This document shows positions 13,914 through 20,248 of a DNA stretch of 26,276 nt, in pieces. The notes beneath the pieces were generated by a model that was not told where the DNA came from, ran no database searches, and was given only the letters and a program-made list of their open reading frames with translations. The first letter of the stretch is position 1. Each line of letters starts with the position of its first letter. Made by a program: the position numbers and the translations under genes. The stretch covers positions 1 to 26,276 of the IMG/VR virus record IMGVR_UViG_3300048797_000008; one strand, given 5' to 3'. This DNA is from a virus.

Positions 13914-14711
13914 CTATGCAAATGCGGCAATAGCCGCTCCACCCAAACCGAATAAACCCTGATTCATGGAGTTTTGTTGTCCAACCTGTGCGTTGTAAGT
14001 ATTCATCAAACCACCATAAAGAGCGTTTTGCGCGCCGGTTAAATCTGCTCCAGCGGTATAATTTTGCTGTGATATGGCCGGGTTCTGGATTTGTCCACCT
14101 TGTTGAAGCCCTTGCAAGGCTGTAATAGGCATCAGTTGTTGTTGTAGTGCGTCTTGACGCGCTTGTGTATCCAGTCCTATTCCCTGTAATGCAGCTTGCG
14201 ATTGAGCGTCATTTTGACGCTGGCTGTTTAATGTCTGGGCTGTATTGTAGGCTTCCGATCCAATTCCTATACCTTGATTGGCTAATTGAGTATTCATGGT
14301 GTTTGTGTCTCGTTGTTGCTGTGGAGCAAGTCGAGCCATGATTGCATCTTGAGCGGTTTGTCCCGGATTGATAGGAGCCGCAGGAGCGTTGTTTAGATTA
14401 AACCCAGCCCCTTGATTGTATAACCCCTGCATCTGTGGGTTAAGTGATGTATTTTGTGTCCATTGCGGGTTTTGAGCAGTTCCGCTATTTACCCATTGAA
14501 CACTACCATTAACGCCGTTCTGGTTCGGTCTGTTGGCTTGTGTCGCAGTGGTGGCGTTTGCAAGATTGCCAGCAGCAGTTTGTTGAGCAGCACTTGTATA
14601 ATCCGGTGGTGCAGGCGGTTTGCCACCTTTCCCGCTCATGCCACCAAGAACATTGGGTACGCTGTATTTATTTAATACAGCAGTTGGATCAAGTGAATTT
14701 GAACCTGACAT
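13914..14711 (-). CDS. Putative structural/internal protein, Gln/Asn-rich, 265 aa
   Basis: Contains KGGKPPAPPDYTSAAQQTAA, then a long Gln/Asn/Ala-rich helical region (APQQQRDTNTMNTQLANQGI; SQRQNDAQSQAALQG), ending in a hydrophobic Gly/Ala tail (GLFGLGGAAIAAFA). The K-PPAPPDY start is familiar from podovirus-like virion proteins encoded next to ejection proteins. A strong AGGAGA site overlaps the stop of the GNAT gene. The hydrophobic C-terminus could contact membrane or a partner. Specific role not known. Confidence 0.6.
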   Translation of the reverse strand: MSGSNSLDPTAVLNKYSVPNVLGGMSGKGGKPPAPPDYTSAAQQTAAGNLANATTATQANRPNQNGVNGSVQWVNSGTAQNPQWTQNTSLNPQMQGLYNQGAGFNLNNAPAAPINPGQTAQDAIMARLAPQQQRDTNTMNTQLANQGIGIGSEAYNTAQTLNSQRQNDAQSQAALQGIGLDTQARQDALQQQLMPITALQGLQQGGQIQNPAISQQNYTAGADLTGAQNALYGGLMNTYNAQVGQQNSMNQGLFGLGGAAIAAFA

Positions 14712-14720
14712 AACAATCTC

Positions 14721-15113
14721 CTACATGAATTTAATGCAATCTTGCTTATTCAATGAAAATATAACCATATCCCCATCCGGCATGGCATGAGAAATCACTC
14801 CGATCTGTTTAGAGCCGAAGTGTTTTACTAACCTCAAACTTTTATGATTTTTGCTTGATACCGTAGATATGATGCAATTTACTTTTGCAACATTGAAAGA
14901 AAAATCCAGTATCGCTTTCAGGAATTCTCTAGTGATCCATGTACTACAAGCTAACGTGCAACACATAGATGCTTCGTTATATTTGTCGAATATGACACCA
15001 GCAGTTATATCTCCATTCTGTACTTGACCTATTGCTCTTGAGCTATTAGGGAACCAATCACCATTGACTTCTTTAGCTACCCAAAGTCCCGCTGCATCTC
15101 CTGAGATTATCAG
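14721..15113 (-). CDS. GNAT-type acetyltransferase, apparent CTG start
   Basis: The frame is open from 15140 to the TAG at 14721, but the only ATG (14966) would remove the first half of the domain. Read from CTG 15113, which overlaps the upstream TGA (CTGA, where other genes have ATGA), it gives 130 residues: (M)IISGDAAGLWVAKEVNGDWF, RAIGQVQNGDITAGVIFDKY, TWITREFLKAILDF, VSSKNHKSLRLVKHFGSK and HAMPDGDMVIFSL. This is the full pattern of small phage GNAT proteins (RAIG ... AGV.FD.YN ... S.N..S.R...H.GF ... MPDGD). They would transfer an acetyl group from acetyl-CoA to an unknown target. A rare start, or an inactivating ATG-to-CTG change, are the two readings. Confidence 0.7.
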   Translation of the reverse strand: MIISGDAAGLWVAKEVNGDWFPNSSRAIGQVQNGDITAGVIFDKYNEASMCCTLACSTWITREFLKAILDFSFNVAKVNCIISTVSSKNHKSLRLVKHFGSKQIGVISHAMPDGDMVIFSLNKQDCIKFM

Positions 15114-16624
15114 AGGACGCTTCCCAACTCGAATACGACATCAGTTGCTACCCAATGAGTTTCTATTCCATTAGCTACAACTTGCAACTCTATTCCACCG
15201 GCCATTCCTATTCCTGTAACCCCTTGCCATAAACGAGACAACCCAAGATTATCAGCCCATACAGCCATGTCCTCGAGTCCTGTATCCCAAGTACCGTAAG
15301 TAGTTGCCACAACTGAAAGAGGTTGATAATTGCTGTTAGTTGTAAAATCAGTGTTCATTTTTGCAAATATCGCGGGAGTGCCATTTGTTATTAGAGTGGG
15401 TCTAACCATCGTGAAGCGTTTTTGCTTCCCTGGCTTACTGAAATAATTAAACGCCTGTGCAGCATCAGCTTGGATATTGGTCGCGTTATCGCCAAGGGTA
15501 TTCCATGCTTGTCCTACATACCCATTACTACCAAAATAAAGATTATCATTCCAGACTACCCAACAATTAGCATTCCATCCGGTAAACCGCGCCCATGCTT
15601 TTGTAATGGTGTTCATTACATACTGCTCCTGACTTCCTACTGCTACAGGAACATTCAAGACGAGCATATTGGCCTTGGCGAAATACTGTGTTTCCCAACC
15701 AAATGTTGCACTGTAAAGAGTTACCGCGTTTGAAATGGCGTATTGAATCTTGTCGGTTAATGAGACTCTCGGATCAAGTCTGGATGATTGCAGGGCAGCT
15801 GCAAGAGGTAGCAGACCGTCTTGTGAGATGATAAGTAAGTCTCCTCCATACTTCATCAGGCATCTCTTCCCGACTGGAGAACCTAAACTCCATATTCCAG
15901 CCAGAAACCATGTAGTCGCACTAGCTGGGTCGGTTCCTCTGTAAACAATGACATCGCCTTTATTGGTAATAAAGACCAACATATCATCGACACCGTAACC
16001 GGCATCTATAGTCCATGCACCCATAGCGACTAAATAACCGCCATTGCGGGCTACAGATTGAAGCGGAAATTGAACTGCTGCACCTGCGATAGCTGAAGTG
16101 GGAAGATACCAAGCATTAAGGGTGTTTTTTTCAATCATCCAGACTCGGTACTTGAATACCGAAATATCTGAAACATTGGATGTATCAAGGACGCTTATAT
16201 CGTGTGCGCCGTCACCGTCTTTCCACCAGTTAGTACCGTCATATCCTTGGAGCTTATCATTGCCATTTATGTTGAGCATGAAGTTACCACCAGAGGTAGC
16301 AATGTTCACAGACTCAAATCTGGCATTACCCAATCCTGTAACCACCGCTGCACCGACCGCGCCACCAGCAGAAACATTAAAAATCTTAGTACCGGCTGCT
16401 GCAAACAATTTATTGGAATTACCGCCAGCATAAGGGAGCAGGCTTTCAACCTGATTTGTCAGACCTGTAGCGAATTGTGTGTAACCTTTCCTGACTATCA
16501 GGTCAGAAGTCCCAGGCCACCAGTTCGTCATGGACACAGCATCAAGAGGATTCATTTCTCCCCAAGCATCACGCGCATTCCAGCCGCCCAAAGGTGCAGG
16601 CAATGAAGTTGATATGGCAGCCAT
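15110..16624 (-). CDS. Tail/packaged-DNA stabilisation-like protein, 504 aa
   Basis: Starts MAAISTSLPAPLGGWNARDA, followed by NPLDAVSMTNWWPGTSDLIV. This PAPxGGWNARDxxxxMxxxDA...NWxP pattern is common to a large family of phage head-completion or tail proteins encoded next to adaptor genes. The rest is strand-rich with repeated Trp/Tyr/Gly motifs (KDGDG; WVVWNDNLYFGSNGYVGQAW), consistent with a beta-propeller-like fold like P22 gp10. Probable role: sealing the portal-tail channel after DNA packaging. Three bases separate it from the adaptor gene. Function by family resemblance. Confidence 0.65.
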   Translation of the reverse strand: MAAISTSLPAPLGGWNARDAWGEMNPLDAVSMTNWWPGTSDLIVRKGYTQFATGLTNQVESLLPYAGGNSNKLFAAAGTKIFNVSAGGAVGAAVVTGLGNARFESVNIATSGGNFMLNINGNDKLQGYDGTNWWKDGDGAHDISVLDTSNVSDISVFKYRVWMIEKNTLNAWYLPTSAIAGAAVQFPLQSVARNGGYLVAMGAWTIDAGYGVDDMLVFITNKGDVIVYRGTDPASATTWFLAGIWSLGSPVGKRCLMKYGGDLLIISQDGLLPLAAALQSSRLDPRVSLTDKIQYAISNAVTLYSATFGWETQYFAKANMLVLNVPVAVGSQEQYVMNTITKAWARFTGWNANCWVVWNDNLYFGSNGYVGQAWNTLGDNATNIQADAAQAFNYFSKPGKQKRFTMVRPTLITNGTPAIFAKMNTDFTTNSNYQPLSVVATTYGTWDTGLEDMAVWADNLGLSRLWQGVTGIGMAGGIELQVVANGIETHWVATDVVFELGSVL

Positions 16625-18431: not shown

Positions 18432-19817
18432 TCATTCTCCTAGTAAGTTTTCCTGCGTTGATTTGACCCATGCCAAGTAAGGGAGTAATCCATCGCCATG
18501 CACGGTTATATTGCATCCTAATTGCCTTAGTTGATTCGATAACTGCTGCCACTGATTCACTTGCGTAATCATCCAAGGTGTAGATTTGAACTTACGTCCC
18601 TCGACTTCAGCTTCTACAACATCGCTTTCGTCCTCTTGCGGATAAGCATGTCCTTCATCTTCACGGATACTTGAATCATAGCCATAAAGATGAATGTCCC
18701 TGAAACCTTGTGTATAGGCTAGACTCATCGCAATAAGCCCTACAGTAGAACCGCCTCCTATTGCCTGGATGGGTCGATCCCCTGGTATGTATTCTCCGAC
18801 ATGAGGAATGTCAATGTGGAATAAGGTTGTCGGTTCATCCTTGAGCCAAGAAAAAATAATTGGAGCGCACTGAGATGCAATAAAATACTCTTGTGCAGGA
18901 TAACCAGAGACAAATGGTGCATTACTCACACGCGAGTCAATCATCACTAACCAATCTGGAGGTATGTCATTCTCGACCAAGAACTCAGCCGATCCATTAA
19001 GCCCAACTATCAAAGCTCCTTCTTGCTGCAAGTCTCTAATTTCGCCCAGCGAGTCTTTAAGCGAAGGCGCACCACCACAGAGAACAATTTTTCTGTCTGT
19101 CGCTGGTTTAATTTCTAGCCAAGGCAAATCAAGGCTAGATGAATATCTGATGTTTTCTTTTACCTTAGTCAATTCCGTGTTACAGATCACTTCAAAATCA
19201 GTCGTAGCATAAGGGTCTTTTTTCCAGAACAACTTTACCCATCCGTCTACTTGATGAGGTCTGGGTAGTCCATGAAAACATACTATGGAAGTCTTAGGCG
19301 GTATCCCCAAAGTTGCGTGTGCTTTGTAAGATATAATTTTCTCAGGAAACAGGTCTTGCACATAATCCGCTCTTACCATGCTTTCAATATAGACTTGGTC
19401 GCCACCTTCAATCTCAGGTTGACCGTCTGCGATGAAAGAATCCGTGATTTGATGCCCATAACCACCTCTCCATAACATCACGCCTGACCCATATCCATCG
19501 GGTTTGTAGAAGTCTCGGAGAAGCGCAAAATCACCTGTATATTCCGCCAGATGATCTATATTGCCTGTAATGACAGTATCAAGGTCAAGGAAAATCACTC
19601 TCCCCTCTGTGAATTCCTTAAACAAGAATAGTTTGGCAAACCATCCGTTCCCCTGAATAGGTCGAGTTTCGCACTCTATCCCATCTGGATTGTCGGTAAA
19701 GCATACAAACTTGTGAGGCACGGAAAGATTCAACTCAACTGCTTCATACAGGATGTTCACATACTCAGCCCCGCATCCGGCGTAGTTGTTATTCATCACG
19801 CAACAGACTGTCAGCAT
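18432..19817 (-). CDS. Glycosyltransferase (GT-A type) fused to a DUF115-like domain
   Basis: 461 residues from ATG 19817 (a TTG at 19835 would add six). The N-terminal ~205 residues look like a GT-A glycosyltransferase: LTVCCVMNNNYAGCGAEYVN, the metal/sugar-binding DxD in VIFLDLDTVITGN, GSGVMLWRGG, EGGDQVYIE and VCFHGLPRPHQ. The C-terminal ~240 residues (RKIVLCGGAPSLKDSL; PDWLVMIDSRVS; IGGGSTVGLIAMSLAYTQGF; DIHLYGYDSS) match DUF115/MptE-like proteins, which bind phosphorylated sugars or pterins. The start overlaps the end of the methyltransferase-like gene by seven bases. It probably adds or prepares a sugar on a virion or host surface component; the acceptor is unknown. Confidence 0.8.
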   Translation of the reverse strand: MLTVCCVMNNNYAGCGAEYVNILYEAVELNLSVPHKFVCFTDNPDGIECETRPIQGNGWFAKLFLFKEFTEGRVIFLDLDTVITGNIDHLAEYTGDFALLRDFYKPDGYGSGVMLWRGGYGHQITDSFIADGQPEIEGGDQVYIESMVRADYVQDLFPEKIISYKAHATLGIPPKTSIVCFHGLPRPHQVDGWVKLFWKKDPYATTDFEVICNTELTKVKENIRYSSSLDLPWLEIKPATDRKIVLCGGAPSLKDSLGEIRDLQQEGALIVGLNGSAEFLVENDIPPDWLVMIDSRVSNAPFVSGYPAQEYFIASQCAPIIFSWLKDEPTTLFHIDIPHVGEYIPGDRPIQAIGGGSTVGLIAMSLAYTQGFRDIHLYGYDSSIREDEGHAYPQEDESDVVEAEVEGRKFKSTPWMITQVNQWQQLSNQLRQLGCNITVHGDGLLPYLAWVKSTQENLLGE

Positions 19818-20248
19818 TTGAAAACCGCCGTCCAAGGGGTATGTTTAGCGTGTATTACACAATCTAATCCATCAGTCATTGATTCATATTCTGGACTACA
19901 CATAGCCGCATCAGCATCGTGCATCACGATCACTTTTGCAATCTTCGCCAGCTTTGGAATCCATTTAATACGGTCAGATGTTAATTGTTCATTATCTAGG
20001 AATACCAAACCATATTTCCCTTCTGGTTCCCATGTAGCCCAATCTACTATTTCAACTTCTGCAATATCACGGAATCGGTCAGCCCATACAGGGTCAGACG
20101 ATTTAATCACCAAACGATTACCGCGATGTTTGGCAATAGCTGATAACAATGGAGTAGAGTAATCACCACTCCCCAATTCCAGAATATCTCCCGTTGTTGC
20201 AAGTGCAGCCTCAATCAAGGCGTGTTGATGCGTTGCGTATGCGTCCAT
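19811..20248 (-). CDS. Class I SAM-dependent methyltransferase-like protein, 145 aa
   Basis: The Rossmann-like pattern starts with motif I ILELGSGDYSTPLL (residues 22-35), then RLVIKSSDPVWADRF, GLVFLDNEQLTSDRI (motif IV-like) and VIVMHDADA (motif V-like). This is short for a methyltransferase but matches a compact phage family that I associate with glycan-modification genes. The residue after beta-2 that usually binds the ribose (Asp/Glu) is replaced by a KSSD region, so activity should not be assumed. Coupled to the glycosyltransferase by a seven-base overlap, suggesting a shared pathway. Confidence 0.6.
   Translation of the reverse strand: MDAYATHQHALIEAALATTGDILELGSGDYSTPLLSAIAKHRGNRLVIKSSDPVWADRFRDIAEVEIVDWATWEPEGKYGLVFLDNEQLTSDRIKWIPKLAKIAKVIVMHDADAAMCSPEYESMTDGLDCVIHAKHTPWTAVFKC

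Follow-up and report, generated by a model that had tools for sequence, protein, structure and literature searches.

A CTG codon inside a four-base stop/start overlap as the probable start of a phage GNAT gene

The stretch of DNA analysed here (the window) is the 26,276-base virus record IMGVR_UViG_3300048797_000008 of IMG/VR. It carries on the minus strand a gene for a GNAT-fold N-acyltransferase (14721..15113; 130 codons from a CTG to a TAG stop), assigned by a match to phrog_4470 and by the model of its product. The frame follows an in-frame TGA stop at 15143-15141, is open over 15140-14724 (139 codons) and closes with TAG at 14723-14721, as read from the sequence and from the list of open reading frames (ORFs). 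The proposed start codon, CTG at 15113-15111, shares the four bases CTGA (15110..15113, minus strand) with the TGA at 15112-15110 that ends the upstream 504-aa head-completion gene, STAB (15110..16624, minus strand; phrog_5107, E 3e-116, and the annotations of relatives). A reading made earlier from the sequence alone had placed the CTG at this position and in this overlap, and both were read directly in the DNA. The two genes have the co-directional NTGA overlap of a −4 nt coupled pair, but the first letter is C and not the A, G or T of a canonical start. A weak Shine-Dalgarno (SD)-like GGGAAG is located in the 3′ end of STAB (15117..15124, minus strand), with an anti-SD duplex of −4.2 kcal/mol. 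The next downstream structural gene, phrog_6121 (13914..14711, minus strand), has an ATG start with its own SD. The PHROGs name of phrog_5107 (window 15110-16624) is 'amidase, lysis', which RefSeq has copied, whereas relatives appear in other records as stabilization, head closure or neck proteins, and the lysis name is probably a misnomer.

The sequence-only reading had also claimed that no ATG, GTG or TTG occurs between the upstream in-frame stop and the ATG at 14966, and the sequence, the translation and the ORF list all bore this out. This first in-frame canonical start (14964..14966, minus strand) lies 146 nt past the TGA, has no SD, and we judged it not to be the real start. The starts of the other structural genes checked in the window are all ATG, GTG or TTG. 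The related claim that other junctions of this genome use ATGA held for one gene pair, at 23712-23709, and for no more than that one.

The frame encodes a real small phage GNAT, as had been proposed. The profile phrog_4470, 'acyl-CoA N-acyltransferase', matched frame residues 15-135 with an E-value of 7.7e-26 (profile positions 10-132 of 146), which covers most of the protein, and homologues were found by tblastn in 27 phage records. The AlphaFold2 model of the 130-residue product read from the CTG has a mean pLDDT of 96 and its strands and helices in the full GNAT order, strand b1 occupying residues 2-4, and it matches GNATs in the PDB such as SpeG (Foldseek E ∼1e-7). A start at residue 50 (ATG 14966) would cost residues 1-49 of 130 and would remove b1, a1, b2 and b3 of the model, in agreement with the earlier expectation that part of the domain would be lost. 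In a leave-one-out profile score, the window protein ranked 41 out of 47 and that of the GTG locus L011 ranked 43; among 32 well conserved columns, the window protein departs at 13, more than most, and that of L011 at 10. The conserved residues F69, Y71, P72 and F101 are among those changed in the window. These values are compatible with a window protein that is divergent but working, and on the conservation scores alone early decay would also be conceivable.

We read the STAB/GNAT junction in loci obtained from MCP and STAB searches and in annotated phages. Most of the loci having a start in this frame showed the 4-base NTGA overlap, and in these the N-terminus lines up with that of the window protein as translated from CTG. 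The window CTG aligns base for base with the GTG, ATG or TTG of relatives at the same junction; the N-terminal alignment suggested earlier as a check thus gave homologues starting at exactly this position, mostly within GTGA. None of the homologues found begins at a codon equivalent to ATG 14966. Among the untargeted loci of the sample, the start within NTGA was GTG in 22, ATG in 15, TTG in 4 and CTG in one, the window itself, and in 64 further loci the GNAT gene starts elsewhere, for example at an ATG that precedes the stop by 13 nt. Scans with the GNAT or the STAB sequence by itself did not find close relatives; no relative with more than 58% identity in STAB was found for the window, and the best MCP matches in genome contigs were only 44%.

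A targeted scan of viral contigs was performed with a degenerate DNA pattern, the STAB C-terminus followed by xTC|TGA, and ran to completion with 56 hits. STAB genes accounted for 35 of these, and in 28 of the 35 the CTG frame encoded a GNAT. With G in place of C, the pattern gave at least 124 STAB loci, at least 113 of them with both STAB and GNAT. We called a CTG strict when no ATG, GTG or TTG occurred from −20 to +29 nt, and counted after removal of duplicates. Besides the window, 18 loci from many metagenomes are strict, with the same base and an intact GNAT frame. The distinct loci with NTGA starts were at least 106 with GTG, 15 with ATG, 4 with TTG, 19 with strict CTG (including the window) and 6 with CTG and a nearby alternative, either CTGATG or a TTG two codons on; these numbers are not frequencies, because the pattern search enriches for CTG. 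One CTG contig, L137, was also recovered by an untargeted scan. Identical CTG junctions were present in contigs of different metagenomes (L140/L153/L175 and L156/L161), and their recurrence excludes an assembly error in general. None of the cultured phages among the records examined had CTG here; in Myxococcus phages Mx8 and Mx9, both cultured, the overlap reads GTGA.

Four of these junctions (L145, L138, L168 and L164) read CTGATG, with an ATG immediately after the CTG, which allows initiation to move to a TGATG overlap; CTGATG is possibly an intermediate route between starts.

To count changes of the start codon, trees were built on STAB minus its last six residues. Strict CTG required 8 changes on the FastTree tree (118 rows) and 7 on the IQ-TREE tree (mixture model, 66 rows), and strongly supported branches of both trees force at least 7. 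The window pairs with the GTG locus L011 (support 98-99). L158, L187 and L182 fall among GTG rows, the sister of L158 being L093 (GTG), and L137 adjoins L045, which has TTG. Two CTG lineages have GTG sisters at 83-90% nucleotide identity. The change count is unrooted and gives no direction, GTG being by far the commonest state. With GTG in the sister L011 and in most neighbours, the ancestral start of the window gene was probably GTG rather than ATG. At least seven switches to CTG at the same spot, with the gene kept intact, indicate that CTG probably functions as a start and is not the mark of a broken gene.

The sequence-only reading had asked for a test for purifying selection. In one CTG clade, F4 (8 sequences), such selection was found to act also on the codons between the CTG and the first ATG. 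Codons 2-17 have 8 synonymous and 5 nonsynonymous changes, against a neutral expectation of 82% nonsynonymous (p 0.0006); the whole GNAT gene has 56 and 34, respectively (p 1e-16). The pairwise pN/pS is 0.15 in codons 2-17, a value that takes in the two TTG+5 relatives, and 0.19 for the gene as a whole. No SD precedes the first ATG of F4. In the F5 clade, codons 2-11 are too little diverged for a selection test, and constraint is seen over the remainder of the gene. L158 reaches its first canonical start only at +224 nt, and the gene is whole (145 codons). The lengths of GNAT genes with CTG and with GTG overlap, and none of the strict-CTG loci has a broken frame. The two findings among relatives that had been named as refuting a CTG start, homologues beginning at the 14966 equivalent and frame-breaking changes before it, were looked for, and neither was seen among the relatives read.

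We also compared the context of initiation. The mean anti-SD pairing is −9.7 kcal/mol in the CTG class and −7.3 kcal/mol in the GTG class, compared to −4.2 in the window; kinship is uncorrected in these means, and the stronger SD of the CTG class was not counted as evidence. The G-rich DNA before the NTG comes from the conserved Gly-rich C-terminus of STAB, the end of STAB being the leader. The junction shows nothing unusual in its RNA folding (z 0.58 and −0.65). The window CTG lies inside a predicted short hairpin, GCGUC..UCUGA/UCAGG..GAUGC (15120-15094, minus strand), which overall is not better than shuffled sequence and would be opened by a ribosome finishing STAB.

That the gene has been newly silenced by a GTG-to-CTG change, its protein no longer made and its frame yet to decay, is in our view a rather unlikely account, at odds with several of these data. 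CTG persists through diversification in F4 and F5 with the whole gene under purifying selection, all the strict-CTG frames are unbroken, the window model folds confidently, and the GTG sister L011 is as divergent. In its favour are the poor start that CUG makes, the weak SD of the window (−4.2 kcal/mol), the changes at the four conserved residues named above, and the dispensability of GNAT, which is missing at 67 of the 286 STAB junctions listed. For the family, silencing appears unlikely on sequence comparison; for the window, it would still be the less likely reading. Initiation at another near-cognate codon, AUA (15110-15108), AUC (15107-15105) or AUU (15134-15132), instead of CUG is somewhat less probable than silencing. 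AUA and AUC are codons 2 and 3 of the window gene, and AUA, AUU and AUC are among the weak starts of E. coli (PMC12350097). Codon 2 is AUN in 12 of the 19 strict CTG cases as against 26 of the 106 GTG cases among the matches listed, an excess that may reflect kinship or a helper near-cognate start. However, AUN is absent from codons 2-5 of the CTGAGG lineages (the L149 group and L187) and from the codons before codon 4 in L158; GTG proteins, too, commonly have Ile at codon 2, and the CTG sits exactly where relatives have GTG, ATG or TTG.

An error of sequencing or assembly, the true base being G, is what a single contig with a GTG sister (L011) might lead one to suspect, but the same CTG occurs in 18 other loci, several of them identical across independent assemblies, and we regard it as very improbable. 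Still more remote is synthesis of GNAT as a fusion product of −1 frameshifting near the end of STAB. The GNAT frame is open for 28 nt upstream of the STAB stop and some relatives have G-runs near the end of STAB, yet no slippery heptamer is shared by relatives and none is present in the window, the homologues are stand-alone genes, and the relative frame of GNAT varies (TAATG, TAG+GTG, and gapped arrangements in L019, L021 and the Bcep and Erwinia phages).

The explanation we favour, at a probability of about 0.68 as judged from sequence comparison, is that CUG is the start of the window GNAT gene, used by termination-reinitiation (translational coupling), and that the gene is alive. An intact frame, homologues starting at the same position and the absence of any other usable canonical start come together at this codon. 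Of the two earlier options, a coupled CTG and an ATG silenced by change to CTG, the comparison favours the former, with the correction that the lost codon was more likely GTG. Ribosomes would end translation of STAB at the UGA within CUGA, and a post-termination ribosome that already covers the overlapping codon would take fMet-tRNA and restart one base back at CUG. Because the SD of the window is weak, initiation there most likely stems from coupling by the ribosome that ends STAB. The ancestral GUG would have tolerated the G-to-C change, which can keep the last upstream codon leucine (CTG to CTC). In this account the initiator tRNA would read the CUG itself, coupling would be what permits CUG, and the window copy would be expressed, at a level probably lower than with GUG. 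The family (L158 and F4) makes a stronger case for a CUG start than the window, which offers one contig, a weak SD and AUA/AUC at codons 2-3, and for which early silencing and AUA/AUC initiation are the next best readings.

CUG accounts for 0.024% of bacterial starts and gives 0.86% of the AUG level of expression in E. coli; why bacteria shun it is unclear, according to the same source (PMC11497404). In genome triplets, 1 of 5,080 GUG and 2 of 61,358 AUG starts had switched to CUG (Belinky et al. 2017, PMC5622118). Here, likewise, CUG replaces a canonical start, but those switches are few among thousands of starts, whereas here at least 7 occurred at a single gene junction, all in the coupled context. 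As CUG is so rare a bacterial start, its repeated fixation at one coupled junction was unexpected. Translational coupling by short overlaps is established, and the co-directional 4-nt stop/start overlap seen here is the commonest arrangement in prokaryotes (PMC10666635, PMC12548453). The survey in PMC10666635 describes ATGA and GTGA, while the overlap found here has C as its first letter, repeatedly and at one homologous junction. The same GNAT family, phrog_4470, lies beside a head-completion gene in Myxococcus phage Mx8 (p52/p53), in Bcep/Lessievirus phages and in Erwinia phage Pavtok; the gene pair of Mx8 and Mx9 has a GTGA overlap. The cultured phrog_4470 phages examined have GTG or ATG starts or a gap between the genes, in contrast to the CTG of the window.

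Since CUG is weak and rarely fixed, its recurrence requires either tolerance of low expression or a relaxed choice of start after termination, and the data fit either. A broader idea, which we offer only tentatively and consider doubtful, is that start choice after termination at 4-nt overlaps may be so relaxed that CUG works, with the first base of NTGA drifting among the four letters and setting the ratio of the two proteins. If so, annotation would generally underestimate CUG starts at 4-nt gene overlaps. A junction with at least seven moves to CUG is a natural experiment on whether weak starts become usable through translational coupling. Annotation is affected as well: a gene finder restricted to ATG, GTG and TTG would miss the window GNAT or begin it 49 codons late. 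When other CTGA junctions were counted in 2.9 Mb of collected loci, only noise-like shadow frames came up, which neither show nor exclude CTG coupling elsewhere.

Two further observations concern the neighbourhood. In five loci without GNAT (L020, L022, L023, L024 and L039), a conserved near-palindrome (TTTTTTAGTAAAAAATCAAGTAAA...TACTTGGTTTTTCTT) comes right after the STAB stop and looks like a two-way terminator, as far as its sequence suggests. In the window, 18432-19835 encodes a glycosyltransferase plus MptE-like protein among the structural genes and overlaps the preceding gene; the ORF tool gave it a TTG start, which has no SD, and an internal ATG nearby is the likelier start.
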